Below, piece after piece: positions 29,876 to 35,175 of a stretch of DNA of 64,000 nucleotides. Position 1 is the stretch's first letter. Each line of letters starts with the position of its first letter. This stretch comes from a virus, in the IMG/VR virus record IMGVR_UViG_3300027749_000083, positions 1-64,000 of that record. The stretch is one strand, 5' to 3'. The translations under genes were made by a program, and so were the position numbers. Below the pieces are notes generated by a model. It worked only from the letters and a program-made list of their open reading frames with translations. It searched no databases and was not told the origin of the DNA.

Positions 29876-30148
29876 ATGATCTTTTTAATCAGGGTTTTTA
29901 CTTTACTTTCTTGTATAGATTGTAAGAAGTATCAAATAGTTATTCAAGATTATTGTAATAGGACTCCAACTCAATTACAGATTATTGATGTCGATAATTA
30001 TGATAATATTCATATAGTTCTAGATTCAAAACTTACAGGAATTCCATACTGTATCTTCTATGATATGAATGGAAATATTCTATCTACTCTTGAAGGTATA
30101 CATACAGCAGAAGAGTTTGATACCTTTTTATATGAGAATAGGATTTAA
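29876..30148 (+). CDS. thioredoxin/glutaredoxin-like protein
   Basis: From the ATG at 29876 (an upstream TTG lies in the terminator stem) 90 residues: a beta strand, the redox motif C-I-D-C in LLSCIDCKKY, and the cis-Pro region LTGIPYCIFYD, then GNILSTLEGIHTAEEF. This is the thioredoxin fold with an active CxxC. It could reduce ribonucleotide reductase or other proteins; the partner is unknown. It overlaps the convergent tape-measure gene by 4 bp. Confidence 0.75.
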   Translation: MIFLIRVFTLLSCIDCKKYQIVIQDYCNRTPTQLQIIDVDNYDNIHIVLDSKLTGIPYCIFYDMNGNILSTLEGIHTAEEFDTFLYENRI

Positions 30149-32205
30149 TAATCCCATAATGCAGGTATTCCGCTTCCGGGTACTGAGGCCATCATCACAC
30201 TATTCATAATATTAGAACTATTCGATGATACATTACCACCAGTGTTAATATTGTTAACAATAATTGGAGTAGAGCTTCCTTGCCCGCCAAGTGATCTACT
30301 GACATCACTGTTCACACTAATACCTGTAGTCGGTTCTATAGTTTTAATTGCATTACGATCTTTATAATCATGACTTTTATAATCATCCCATGATGTATAT
30401 CCAGCGGAAACGGCTTTTTGAAATTTTGCAACACTTTCAAGTTTATCAATATCTAAATCAGTTAAGGCTTTAAGTCCATCAGCGGCGTCTGCAATACTCG
30501 CTAAGCCTTTTGCTATATTATTAAGACCGTCGCCAACAAGAGTGATACCAGCACCTCGTTCAGCTAGACTTATGATTTGTGCAATTGGATCTATTGTAAG
30601 TCCTAGTTTTTTACCAAAGAATGATAGAATACCATCAATTGCGGTGCCAGCTCCAAGTCCGGCAATACCTAAGGCTAATGCACCAACTCCCAAAGCAATA
30701 TCTTTAAGTTTTGTAAATGTTACATTCTTAGTGAGATCTGTTAAATTGGTTACAAAGGTTGTTAATGTTTTAGCAGAATCATTATTCATTGCCATTGATA
30801 ACGACTTAAGACCTCCTGCAAATAAACCAAGACCTATAGCACCTAAAGTTAAACCTGGACCGGCTAGAACTAATGGTATTGCCCCTTCAGCTAAAGATGA
30901 TAATGCTGGACCAATAGTCTCAATAATTTTCCAATCAATTCCTTGTAGCGATTCGAGTGCAAGTATAAAAGGAAATATTGAGGCTCCCAATAAAGTTATA
31001 CCTAAAGCTCCAGCCGCAACCATTGGTAATGCAGATCCAAGTACACCGCCAGCAATAGCTAATACTACTAAGCCTTTAGCAAGATTTTCAATGGTGTCCT
31101 CTTTAATACCTTCCATCATTTTCAATGAAAATACAAATGGCAATATTGAAGCTCCCAATAAAGTTATACCTAAAGCTCCTTTCATTAGAGATCCCGCAAC
31201 AGAACTAAGAAATTTTGCAATAGGAGTAAATACCTCTTGTAACATAATTCCTACATTTTTTAACTTTTCTAATTTTGTAGTAGGTATAGATGTTAATGGT
31301 GTTAGACCTGCAACTATATTATTGGTAATAGTTGATAGCAATAAAGACCCTGCTAACATCTTTACGAATTTTAGATTCTGAAGAGTTTCCAAAGGATCTA
31401 ATATATGAGCAAAAAGTCTGATTCTTTCTTCAAGTTCTTTAGGTATATCTATTGTACTCAAAGCATTTACTAATGCTCGTATACCCATTGCATATATATG
31501 AGAAAGACTTTTAAGAGTCAATGCGCCTTTCAATACACCAATCCAACTGATACTTTGAATATCTTTAACTATTCTTGATAGTCCTGAAAGATGTTTTAAT
31601 TTTTCATCAATTAAAGAAATATCTATTGATTTTATAACATTGACTAATTTCTGAATACCGTTTGTATATACATCAAAAACAAATTGAGGTGTGATACTTA
31701 ACATTAAACCTTTTAATAGATTTCCTACACCAGGAGTTTCGATTGAAGTATCTACCATTTGATGGCGAGATCCTCTATAACTTGATATTTTTGTTATTCG
31801 TTTACCTGGAGACGTTAATACTCTAGTAGCTCCCATAGGTTTATTACTAGAAATAGCACTTGTAACCGGATTTACTATCTTAATATTACTAATAGCTTCA
31901 GTGAGAGTTAATATTCTCTCTGCACTTAATCTGGTATATTTAACTATCTCTTCCCATTTTTTATCATCTCTGATTTCTCTTAATATAGCTGCGACATTTG
32001 CTATATTGAGTAAACCCATTTCTATTTCATGATGAAGACCTTCTGTAGGTTTTAATACTAAAGACTTGGCGGTATCCAATACTTTAATAGATTCTGCAAT
32101 GGATCCGACGATTTGATTTGATTTTTTAATCTCATCAATAATATCAAGAAATCCTCCTTGAAGAGAAACCGAATTAGAAGAAGTTCTTGATATTTTTTTA
32201 GCCAT
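30145..32205 (-). CDS. probable tail tape-measure protein
   Basis: A 686-residue protein with long helical stretches and several hydrophobic segments, including a near-identical pair GALGITLLGASILPF / GALGITLLGASIFPF encoded by a 38-bp DNA repeat (30974-31011, 31142-31179). The C-terminus carries PIIVNNINTGGNVSSNSSN, a kind of tail often seen in tape-measure and phage structural proteins. It follows the gp26-like gene and its frameshift product, the usual order chaperone then tape measure. It would set tail length and be expelled during DNA entry. The assignment rests on composition and position. A late motif lies just upstream. Confidence 0.65.
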   Translation of the reverse strand: MAKKISRTSSNSVSLQGGFLDIIDEIKKSNQIVGSIAESIKVLDTAKSLVLKPTEGLHHEIEMGLLNIANVAAILREIRDDKKWEEIVKYTRLSAERILTLTEAISNIKIVNPVTSAISSNKPMGATRVLTSPGKRITKISSYRGSRHQMVDTSIETPGVGNLLKGLMLSITPQFVFDVYTNGIQKLVNVIKSIDISLIDEKLKHLSGLSRIVKDIQSISWIGVLKGALTLKSLSHIYAMGIRALVNALSTIDIPKELEERIRLFAHILDPLETLQNLKFVKMLAGSLLLSTITNNIVAGLTPLTSIPTTKLEKLKNVGIMLQEVFTPIAKFLSSVAGSLMKGALGITLLGASILPFVFSLKMMEGIKEDTIENLAKGLVVLAIAGGVLGSALPMVAAGALGITLLGASIFPFILALESLQGIDWKIIETIGPALSSLAEGAIPLVLAGPGLTLGAIGLGLFAGGLKSLSMAMNNDSAKTLTTFVTNLTDLTKNVTFTKLKDIALGVGALALGIAGLGAGTAIDGILSFFGKKLGLTIDPIAQIISLAERGAGITLVGDGLNNIAKGLASIADAADGLKALTDLDIDKLESVAKFQKAVSAGYTSWDDYKSHDYKDRNAIKTIEPTTGISVNSDVSRSLGGQGSSTPIIVNNINTGGNVSSNSSNIMNSVMMASVPGSGIPALWDY

Positions 32206-32214
32206 AGTTCATCT

Positions 32215-32385
32215 TTATTTATATGATTTATGACTCTCTCTTTTTTGTTTCTCTTCCTCATCCTTAATATGATTTATGAGTAAGGATAGATAGATTTCCT
32301 TTTCCCAAGGAATTAGATCATTTAACTCATTTAGGCTCCAATGGTGATATTGCGCAAGAGCAAACATTTCTTGATAAAAGTTCAC
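32215..32385 (-). CDS. short tail-module protein, probably also a -1 frameshift extension of gp26
   Basis: 56 residues from GTG 32385, with FYQEMFALAQYHHWSLNELN and LIPWEKEIYLSLLINHIK. The (Y/F)xxxFxLxQxHxWSLxELxxMIPxExEIYxxLL pattern is a small conserved protein in the tail module of T4-like phages. No good start or Shine-Dalgarno site is present, but the same frame is open upstream into gp26, and a T-TTT-TTC slippery site lies just before the gp26 stop. It is therefore probably made as a gp26 fusion. It lies directly before the tape measure. Confidence 0.65.
   Translation of the reverse strand: MNFYQEMFALAQYHHWSLNELNDLIPWEKEIYLSLLINHIKDEEEKQKRESHKSYK
32216..32223 (-). promoter_or_regulatory. 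T4-like late promoter of the tape-measure gene
   Basis: TATAAATA on the minus strand, 10 bp before the ATG at 32205. It overlaps the 3' end of the preceding small gene. Confidence 0.55.
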
Positions 32386-32405
32386 AAGACTTGCGTGAGA
32401 GAGCG

Positions 32406-33113
32406 CTACTCGAAAAAACTTTGTGCACCAATCAATGTTATAGAATTCTTTTCCTTACAAGAAGAGCATACAAACTTTACAACATGTGATAATTTTGGAG
32501 CTTCTGCAATGAAAGTTTCAATTAGAGACATTTGAGTTCTATTTAAAGAATTGATAAATGTTTCCATTTCTTCTCTTGATGTTTGTTCTGAAAGATATAC
32601 CCCAACATCATCAAAAATACTAGCAATGGAAGCAATAACAATATCGGTAATCATATCAGTTTTTTCCGACTTATCATTCATGAGAACATTCATATCTTTA
32701 ACTTGAATATATCTCATATTAAGTCCAATTTTATCTGTAAGCATAATAATTTTGCTCTTTTTAGGATCATTATCAATCTTAATATCTTCAAGATTAATTG
32801 AGGTTTGAGTAAACTTCTTACACTTTGTACACTTACAATTAATAGTTGCAATTTCTCCTACAGATTTTGAACGAAGCTTGAGAAAGATATATTCAAGGTC
32901 TAATACTGAAAGAGTTTCAGGATCAACTTTATTGAATGTACAAGCAGAAATAATATTTTTCATTGCTTGAATAATCTCTGTATTATCCGAAGATTCTTGT
33001 GCTATTAGGAGAATCTTTTCTTCCTTAACCAAAAATGGACGAAATTCTATAGTTTTTTGTGTTGACGGAACAGTAAGCGAATATCTCGGAGATGTAATGA
33101 TAGGAAGTGCCAT
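32406..33113 (-). CDS. 26: gp26-like baseplate hub / tail assembly protein
   Basis: A 235-residue protein: LTVPSTQKTIEFRPFLVKEE and ILLIAQESSDN, then LSVLDLEYIFLKLRSKSVGE, typical of T4 gp26-like proteins. A zinc-ribbon-like set of cysteines (CKCTKC, and CSSCK near the end) is inserted. T4 gp26 acts in assembly of the central baseplate hub. The gene ends QSFFE-stop, overlapping a frameshift site that leads into the next frame. Confidence 0.8.
   Translation of the reverse strand: MALPIITSPRYSLTVPSTQKTIEFRPFLVKEEKILLIAQESSDNTEIIQAMKNIISACTFNKVDPETLSVLDLEYIFLKLRSKSVGEIATINCKCTKCKKFTQTSINLEDIKIDNDPKKSKIIMLTDKIGLNMRYIQVKDMNVLMNDKSEKTDMITDIVIASIASIFDDVGVYLSEQTSREEMETFINSLNRTQMSLIETFIAEAPKLSHVVKFVCSSCKEKNSITLIGAQSFFE
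32412..32418 (-). promoter_or_regulatory. candidate programmed -1 frameshift site T-TTT-TTC
   Basis: On the minus strand the last sense codons of the gp26-like gene are AGT TTT TTC GAG, then TAG. T-TTT-TTC fits the X-XXY-YYZ slippery rule in the correct frame. A -1 slip continues as RVALSHASLVNFYQEM into the next ORF for 65 residues. Phage P2 uses a T-TTT-TTG slip in its tail gene E, also ahead of the tape measure. Confidence 0.6.
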
Positions 33114-33149: not shown

Positions 33150-33998
33150 TTAAACTGGAGTTTGTGGAATTATGGGTTTATAATCAGGAGTTGTTGGAGA
33201 AGTGATAGGCGGAACAACTCTTGGATCTAAGAATGAAGGGTTTAAAGTGTCTAATATTGAAGGTTGATTATCTGGTTGAGGAGCCAATCCGGGTGTTGCC
33301 GGAGCTATAGTTTGATAAGATGGATTATTGGCTGGCTGTAATGGAGTTAATGACGAGCCAGGAACAGGAGCACTATTGTTATATTGATTATTAACAGAAA
33401 TAGGATTTGATGTTATATCAGAATTTGTAACAGAAATAACACGAAAGTCTTTATATGTAAATGAAGCCGAACATGAAACTATTTCATTTTCAATACCATT
33501 ATTCAATTCTAACGCTTTTACTGTATATGGATATGCTTCTATAAGTTCTACACCATATATAATTTTATCACTTTGATCTAATTGATAAAGCTTGATGGAA
33601 GTTTTATATTCATTATCATAATTCAAAAGATATGTATCAATATTAATGATCTTTCCCATCCATAAATCCAATAACTTCTTAACAAAGAAATCATTGGTCA
33701 TATGGAATGTCATTGTAACATCATCGTTAGTATAACCTGCAGGCAATTTAATTGGTCGATGCCATATACCATATTCAACTGTTTCTATTGTTCTTCCAGG
33801 AATTGAAGATGTTTCACAAAAATAATTAAGATCATCCAACTGAACATTATCAACTTGGAATAAAGTGCCGACAGCACTGAAATCCACATAAAATCTATTA
33901 CTCCTGGACAGACCTTGTCTAGCTTGAATTCTAGAAAGTAGAGTTTTTGGATCTGATTTAGAAGTGTTCTTTGGAGGAATAGGATTTGTAATAGCCAT
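33150..33998 (-). CDS. tail-tube / tube-initiator-like protein
   Basis: From the ATG at 33998, 282 residues. SRSNRFYVDFSAVG, then FCETSSIPGRTIETVEYGIWHRP with LPAGYTNDDVTMTF and FVKKLLDLWMG resembles the tail-tube fold of T4 gp19 and gp54 (tube and tube initiator). The last 80 residues are Pro/Asn/Thr-rich and of low complexity. T4 gp19 has 163 residues and gp54 320, so this may be the gp54 equivalent or a tube protein with an extension. It starts 8 bp after the upstream gene stop. Confidence 0.65.
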   Translation of the reverse strand: MAITNPIPPKNTSKSDPKTLLSRIQARQGLSRSNRFYVDFSAVGTLFQVDNVQLDDLNYFCETSSIPGRTIETVEYGIWHRPIKLPAGYTNDDVTMTFHMTNDFFVKKLLDLWMGKIINIDTYLLNYDNEYKTSIKLYQLDQSDKIIYGVELIEAYPYTVKALELNNGIENEIVSCSASFTYKDFRVISVTNSDITSNPISVNNQYNNSAPVPGSSLTPLQPANNPSYQTIAPATPGLAPQPDNQPSILDTLNPSFLDPRVVPPITSPTTPDYKPIIPQTPV

Positions 33999-34587: not shown

Positions 34588-35175
34588 TTAACTGGGATCA
34601 TATCCAAATTCATGAATTGAATTACCATCTGTAAATAATTGATTGGCTAACACAGTCTTAGTGAGAATTCTATAATTGCCCCGCAATTCTCCTAATCCAT
34701 GATTAACTGCATATTGTCTATTTAAAGTAACCCAATCTCCAGGAGAAATAACAAGTTTGGCTGTGTTTGGTTTATCTTTAACTTCCTCTATCTCCTTTGT
34801 AACCCAATCATAAAAAAGCTTCTTATCCCCTTTGTAAGATCTAGGAATTAACTTTCTGCTCATGAAGTTATATTTCATTGTTTTCAATTTAGACAACTTC
34901 TCAGAATTACTTAAAATCTTAGGAACTGCTCGATAAATCGTAACCTTTGCATTGGGCTTATTTCTATAAGCCTTTATAAGGCTTATAGAAATCCTATCAT
35001 TCAAATCTCCACCCATATCACCGTATAGTCTTGCGGCATCTAAACTATAGATATCATCGGGATATATCATATCTAGTTTGTGAAGAGGCGCCTTATCTGG
35101 AGTATTCATGGGGGCTGAATGGTTTCCTCGATAATCAGAATTTTCCAATAAGATGTAAGTTTTAAAAGATATCAT
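34588..35175 (-). CDS. predicted ADP-ribosyltransferase-fold protein
   Basis: A 195-residue protein. AKVTIYRAVPK (R82), SPGDWVTLNRQYAVNHG (about 144-160) and DGNSIHEFGYDP (E189) form an R...(S/T)...E arrangement like the phage polyvalent-protein ADP-ribosyltransferase domains, where Arg binds NAD+ and Glu is catalytic. The N-terminus MISFKTYILLEN is a common start of T4-like late proteins. Its own late promoter and its place between two virion genes suggest it may be packaged, as T4 Alt is. The fold assignment is by motif only; activity is untested. Confidence 0.55.
   Translation of the reverse strand: MISFKTYILLENSDYRGNHSAPMNTPDKAPLHKLDMIYPDDIYSLDAARLYGDMGGDLNDRISISLIKAYRNKPNAKVTIYRAVPKILSNSEKLSKLKTMKYNFMSRKLIPRSYKGDKKLFYDWVTKEIEEVKDKPNTAKLVISPGDWVTLNRQYAVNHGLGELRGNYRILTKTVLANQLFTDGNSIHEFGYDPS

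Follow-up and report, generated by a model that had tools for sequence, protein, structure and literature searches.

The G/GT genes of phage lambda and the E/E' genes of P2 yield short and long forms through a -1 slip just before the tape-measure gene. For T4-like phages, the abstract of Vladimirov, Gautam and Davidson (2022) reportedly mentions T4 genes 26 and 51 and states that several T4-like groups have retained frameshifting. As that study is cited in a passage of PMC10885494, some T4-like phages do without frameshifting and encode a short tail-assembly chaperone (TAC) protein and a longer fusion in two genes; as cited in a passage of PMC12846349, T4-like TAC-N genes contain poly-T slippery sites. 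The same part of PMC12846349 describes a poly-T -1 frameshift at the end of TAC-N in the Vandenendeviridae and Andersonviridae, where the long form is routinely misannotated. Passages of a 2010 review (PMC3004832) list T4 gp26 and gp51 as hub assembly chaperones, gp51 being essential and of unknown function, and report genetic support for gp26 as a component of the T4 hub, to which the tape measure gp29 belongs as well.

The window, a 64,000-nucleotide stretch of an 81,741-base viral record, carries its tail block on the minus strand. Within this block, a gp26-like gene (ORF1) is followed by a short reading frame (ORF2) and a long ORF:

33150..33998, minus strand: tail-tube-like gene upstream of ORF1 (phrog_45, E 2.4e-36; 33150-33989 searched)
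32406..33113, minus strand: ORF1, gp26-like, 235 aa, the putative short form TAC-N (PF12322, E 2.7e-54; phrog_150, E 9.7e-60)
32412..32418, minus strand: slippery heptamer T_TTT_TTC in zero-frame phase, read from the sequence
32406..32408, minus strand: ORF1 stop TAG, one codon (GAG) past the heptamer
32215..32411, minus strand: ORF2, 65 codons (RVALSHASL...SHKSYK) plus stop, gp51-like, entered by a -1 slip and putatively the C-terminal part (TAC-C) of the long form
32383..32385, minus strand: GTG, candidate ORF2 start inside the conserved peptide, with no Shine-Dalgarno (SD) site
30145..32205, minus strand: 686-aa ORF that begins 9 nt past the ORF2 stop, where a tape measure is expected, and is assigned as one by position only

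ORF1 exceeds the PF12322 cut-off (184.6 bits against 24.5), and no second PF12322 copy was found in the 81,741-base record, which is possibly a fragment. ORF2 matches phrog_634, annotated 'baseplate hub assembly catalyst' (E 4.4e-25), a family matched by all 50 aligned members at E ≤ 0.01. Cysteine pairs near residues 92-98 and 218-221 of ORF1 suggest a zinc ribbon. Elsewhere in the structural block, a 195-aa ORF (34588-35175, minus strand) matches phrog_2579, 'ParB C-terminal domain' (E 4.7e-32).

The 3' end of ORF1 reads AGT TTT TTC GAG TAG (S-F-F-E-stop), and T_TTT_TTC fits the X_XXY_YYZ phase relative to the ORF1 frame, so that the correctly phased heptamer claimed in the first-pass annotation is read directly at 32418-32412. 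The -1 frame is open from 32454, just past the TAA at 32457-32455, and ends with the stop at 32217-32215. A tandem -1 slip would continue with CGA GTA GCG... and join ORF1 through F234 to 65 further residues, and the stop-free fusion of about 299 residues that had been predicted thus agrees with the count (234 + 65 = 299). Within the -1 frame, the GTG at 32385 is the sole ATG, GTG or TTG ahead of the conserved core of ORF2.

We interpret the locus as a single tail-assembly chaperone gene that yields TAC-N and TAC-NC by -1 frameshifting, with a probability of roughly 0.85. Most ribosomes would stop after 235 residues and produce the gp26-like short form TAC-N; a minority would slip back one base on T_TTT_TTC and add 65 residues, giving a 299-residue TAC-NC whose C-terminal domain would be the gp51 domain. 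On the model of lambda G/GT, both forms would coat the tape-measure protein and aid polymerisation of the tail tube around it. We infer that slipping takes place, how frequent it is, that the products act as chaperones and that the tape measure is their partner. The locus shares with lambda G/GT and P2 E/E' the predicted slip and, by gene order, the probable position before the tape measure; no sequence relation to them emerged, only a weak PF10109 (Phage_TAC_7) match (E 0.014, below the cut-off) and a partial fold match to the HK97 chaperone. The poly-T slippery site in TAC-N is common to the T4-like genes of Vladimirov et al. (2022) as cited in part of PMC12846349, the window representing a new uncultivated phage, and to the Vandenendeviridae and Andersonviridae, which are other phage families and, in the same part of that source, use the motif GTTTTT.

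Conservation of the junction was evaluated in 193 sequences comprising the window, sets of 80 and 96 loci, and 16 annotated phage regions; two of the locus searches each gave the best 80 of about 600, and some loci duplicate the same phages. The end of ORF1 could be located in 192 of the 193 (L111 is incomplete). The ORF2 domain lies in the -1 frame relative to ORF1 in all 192 located loci, window included, and 190 of these have an in-phase T6N heptamer no more than 36 nt from the ORF1 stop, counts that come from related loci and are not independent trials. The last base of the heptamer is C in 144, T in 41, G in 3 and A in 2 of the 190 loci; in 163 of them the heptamer begins 10 nt ahead of the stop codon. 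The two exceptions are L104, in which ORF1 stops prematurely and an intact T run lies farther on, and L079, which has lost the T run, about 30 nt before its ORF1 stop, through a T-to-G difference. This difference, in the sole located locus with a broken run, is either a real variant or a sequencing error.

Codon choice at the site was quantified in representatives selected at 70% amino acid identity (90 from the 192 loci). An initial version of the test was discarded as circular, its 89 representatives having been picked for possession of the heptamer. In the version free of heptamer selection, the protein motif GxxxF[F/L] near the ORF1 end anchors 89 of the 90 representatives, and every one of these 89 has a T wobble before the FF pair followed by TTT as the first Phe codon, where codon usage predicts about 32. 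The unanchored 90th is L079, which reads V-F at the site and has no heptamer. At other FF dipeptides in ORF1 bodies, an in-phase T6N occurs in 3 of 74 cases. On these sequence comparisons, the conservation of heptamer and frame is more than chance, given the -1 relation (192/192), the T6N run (190/192) and the codon test (89/89), and the junction is retained in relatives.

The counts of start codons, stimulators, structure and substitutions that follow refer to 89 representatives chosen for the heptamer, with L079 and L104 omitted. From the heptamer onward, the -1 frame is kept as protein (FFRIALSHDSL...), and substitutions past the heptamer in 145 close pairs fall at -1-frame codon positions 1, 2 and 3 in numbers of 154, 73 and 322, respectively. 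ORF2 might instead be a separate small gene with its own start, or one translationally coupled to the termination of ORF1, with an incidental T6 run. An independent start is conceivable because 6 of the 89 representatives, including loci of Vibrio, Rhizobium, Sinorhizobium, Stenotrophomonas and Caulobacter phages, have an ATG that overlaps the ORF1 stop, and 53 of the 89 have some ATG, GTG or TTG before nt +48; in addition, 12 of the 16 annotated phage records give ORF2 its own CDS. An early start accompanied by an SD-like stretch, however, occurs in just 4 of the 89 representatives, the heptamer is in phase in 190 of 192 loci, and the slipped frame is protein-like right after the heptamer even where the -1 frame contains no ATG, GTG or TTG as far as nt +36 of the heptamer (67 of 190 loci, 41 of 89 representatives). 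Within these 67 start-less loci, 23 close pairs, which share sequences and are not independent, show changed codons in a ratio of 47 synonymous to 28 non-synonymous for the -1 frame, compared with 10:59 for the zero frame and 7:67 for the +1 frame. The substitution pattern demonstrates that the -1 frame past the slip site evolves as coding sequence in the start-less loci, a set to which the window does not belong because of its GTG at 32385. All six representatives with an overlapping ATG keep both heptamer and frame; relatives with a clear ORF2 start had been named as grounds for abandoning the prediction, and what the relatives display mostly favours frameshifting. We consider the separate-gene explanation very improbable.

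The first-pass annotation had also stressed that ORF2 lacks a good start and a ribosome site. The former point holds in that the only candidate is the GTG at 32385, located inside the conserved peptide; the latter is uninformative, and we rejected it as evidence for frameshifting, because an SD-like 4-mer precedes only 3 of the 42 ATG ORFs of at least 150 aa in the window, with ORF1 itself lacking one. By the same token, the missing SD site does not exclude a separate ORF2 gene, and the ribosome-site argument carries no weight where few genes of the phage have such sites. The upstream stretches of window ORFs are often AT-rich, and the 42 may include ORFs that arose by chance. This phage seems to initiate translation of its genes without Shine-Dalgarno sites, and the genes of its nearest relatives mostly lack them in the sequenced pieces examined.

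Among the relatives, GAG is the codon used in 31 of 53 Glu-Gly pairs situated about 10-14 nt before the heptamer, compared with 25% of Glu codons in ORF1 bodies (p 2e-7); measured against Glu-Gly pairs elsewhere (15/42), the enrichment reaches p 0.04 only. The SD-like duplex energy is clearly below that of synonymous shuffles in 50 of the 89 representatives, and the window has no GAGG ahead of its slip site. In the 82 representatives whose aligned start is an ATG, SD use at the start of the gene and an SD-like stretch ahead of the slip site were not linked (31 with and 14 without versus 28 with and 9 without; Fisher p 0.62). Downstream structure scores a z below -2 in 23 of the 89 representatives versus 23 of 267 ORF1 control stretches, which differ in frame and codon table from the stretches tested. 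No single downstream helix stands out across all loci, and the downstream fold of the window is unremarkable (z -1.2). Long predicted stems, in which the ORF2 start pairs with codons of an NFALMQ-type stretch, were seen in a minority of loci (L184, L031, L048, L041 and L052).

These data also bear on whether RNA polymerase, rather than the ribosome, slips on the T run to reach the -1 frame. The same run would in principle serve, with a nearly identical protein as the outcome. Against this, six Ts are short for polymerase slippage, a single phase (T_TTT_TTN) is kept in 190 of 192 loci, and the GAG bias 12-14 nt upstream resembles an SD-like stimulator of ribosomal frameshifting, so that we regard polymerase slippage as very improbable. 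Together, the heptamer, the frame relation and the coding character of the slipped frame provide comparative support for the predicted ribosomal shift, and the locus is, judged from its sequence and that of its relatives, very probably a real, working -1 frameshift gene.

The gene order in the window is tail tube, ORF1/ORF2 pair and then the long ORF. The 686-aa ORF matches no Pfam family, and no PHROG at an E below 0.14; it aligns to the annotated tape measure of HTVC008M at E 0.051, and among the loci gathered its only sequence matches at E ≤ 1e-3 are five (L002-L006). An ORF of at least 300 aa, or open-ended, starts within 900 nt downstream in 42 of the 44 representatives that have at least 1,400 nt there, and the long ORF after ORF2 is annotated as the tape measure in HTVC008M and Cr30. 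The earlier designation of the next gene as the probable tape measure fits the position and gene order, and sequence families give no recognition; by position, the 686-aa ORF is probably the tape measure. An extra small ORF lies between ORF2 and the presumed tape measure in L085 (3223-3555), and likewise in L086, L087, L093, L097 and L098; it is absent in the window.

The AlphaFold2 model of ORF1 has a pLDDT of 91.2. When its N-terminal ~90 residues were compared with 997 chains, the uncharacterised structure 3fgx ranked first (Z 8.1) and the HK97 tail-assembly chaperone 2ob9 second (Z 7.2, 3.7 Å over 84 residues), the next chains scoring Z 4.6 and 3.1; a Z near 8 can reflect a common arrangement. 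A Foldseek search of the model against the PDB gave nothing at E ≤ 0.001, with 2ob9 at E 4.9, and profile searches against PDB sequences returned weak unrelated matches only. Against a viral library, the named best matches were mostly baseplate-hub proteins, and many matches were without a name. The model is suggestive of a proximity of the ORF1 N-terminal ~90 residues to the HK97 tail-assembly chaperone fold, and the proposal that gp26 and its partner form a lambda G/GT-like chaperone pair gains suggestive backing from the fold besides the comparative evidence.

It could be that the frameshift is real and that its products are baseplate-hub parts or hub chaperones and not tape-measure chaperones. 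The hub-chaperone listing and the genetic support for gp26 in the hub, both from the passages of the 2010 review (PMC3004832), favour this view; on the opposite side, the order of tail tube, pair and long ORF, the short/long pattern and the TAC-like N-terminal fold fit tape-measure chaperones, and the pair has been identified as TAC in print, according to passages of the citing papers PMC10885494 and PMC12846349. We judge hub products unlikely. This estimate is not exclusive of the TAC-N/TAC-NC reading, because the T4 hub as described in that part of PMC3004832 itself includes the gp29 tape measure. The TAC-N/TAC-NC reading is weakened by the genetic placement of gp26 in the T4 hub, unlike a pure chaperone (PMC3004832, in the passages cited), as well as by the heptamer-free L079, the non-significant Foldseek result, the weak stimulators in the window, a tape measure unrecognised by sequence and the long branches in the tree described below.

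T4 gp26 and gp51 both match PF12322 and phrog_150, and the phrog_634 region is found only in gp51, residues 147-246 of which match this family like ORF2. By these domain matches, T4 gp26 is the short-product form and gp51 the long-product form, present as separate genes. T4 therefore parallels the window in having PF12322 in both products and the ORF2-type domain in gp51, and differs from it in using two genes on opposite strands with no frameshift. In Enterobacter phage EC-F2 (L099, 3001-4294), a gp51-like long gene is directly followed by an ORF on the same strand with a gp26-like C-terminus, in contrast to the divergent T4 genes. A 50-sequence tree, rooted at the midpoint and accompanied by a program warning of long branches meeting among the eight sequences from four two-gene phages, sets these eight apart from the 42 frameshift-type sequences on a 100/98 branch. 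We tentatively suggest, as an idea that we consider less likely than not, an old T4-like frameshift gene in which the heptamer was fixed and its helpers were swapped by lineage, with the T4-type Straboviridae losing the slip once through duplication into genes 26 and 51. The putative helpers would be an upstream SD-like GAGGG (many loci) and a long downstream stem (a minority), neither of which is clear in the closest relatives of the window, whose genes are mostly without SD sites.

The link of gp26 and its partner to tail-assembly chaperones, which the first-pass annotation had supposed undescribed, is already in print (Vladimirov et al. 2022, as cited in passages of PMC10885494 and PMC12846349), and the window is another instance of it. 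Among the titles listed in our literature search none stated the gp26/gp51-TAC link; part of the search covered the years from 2021 on. A joined CDS is absent from all 16 annotated phage records of the frameshift type, of which 12 list ORF2 as a separate gene and 4 leave it unannotated. A pair now labelled 'baseplate hub' and 'hub assembly catalyst' would thereby gain a concrete role and a corrected gene model, and the published connection between T4 gp26/gp51 and lambda-type tail chaperones gains wide environmental support.
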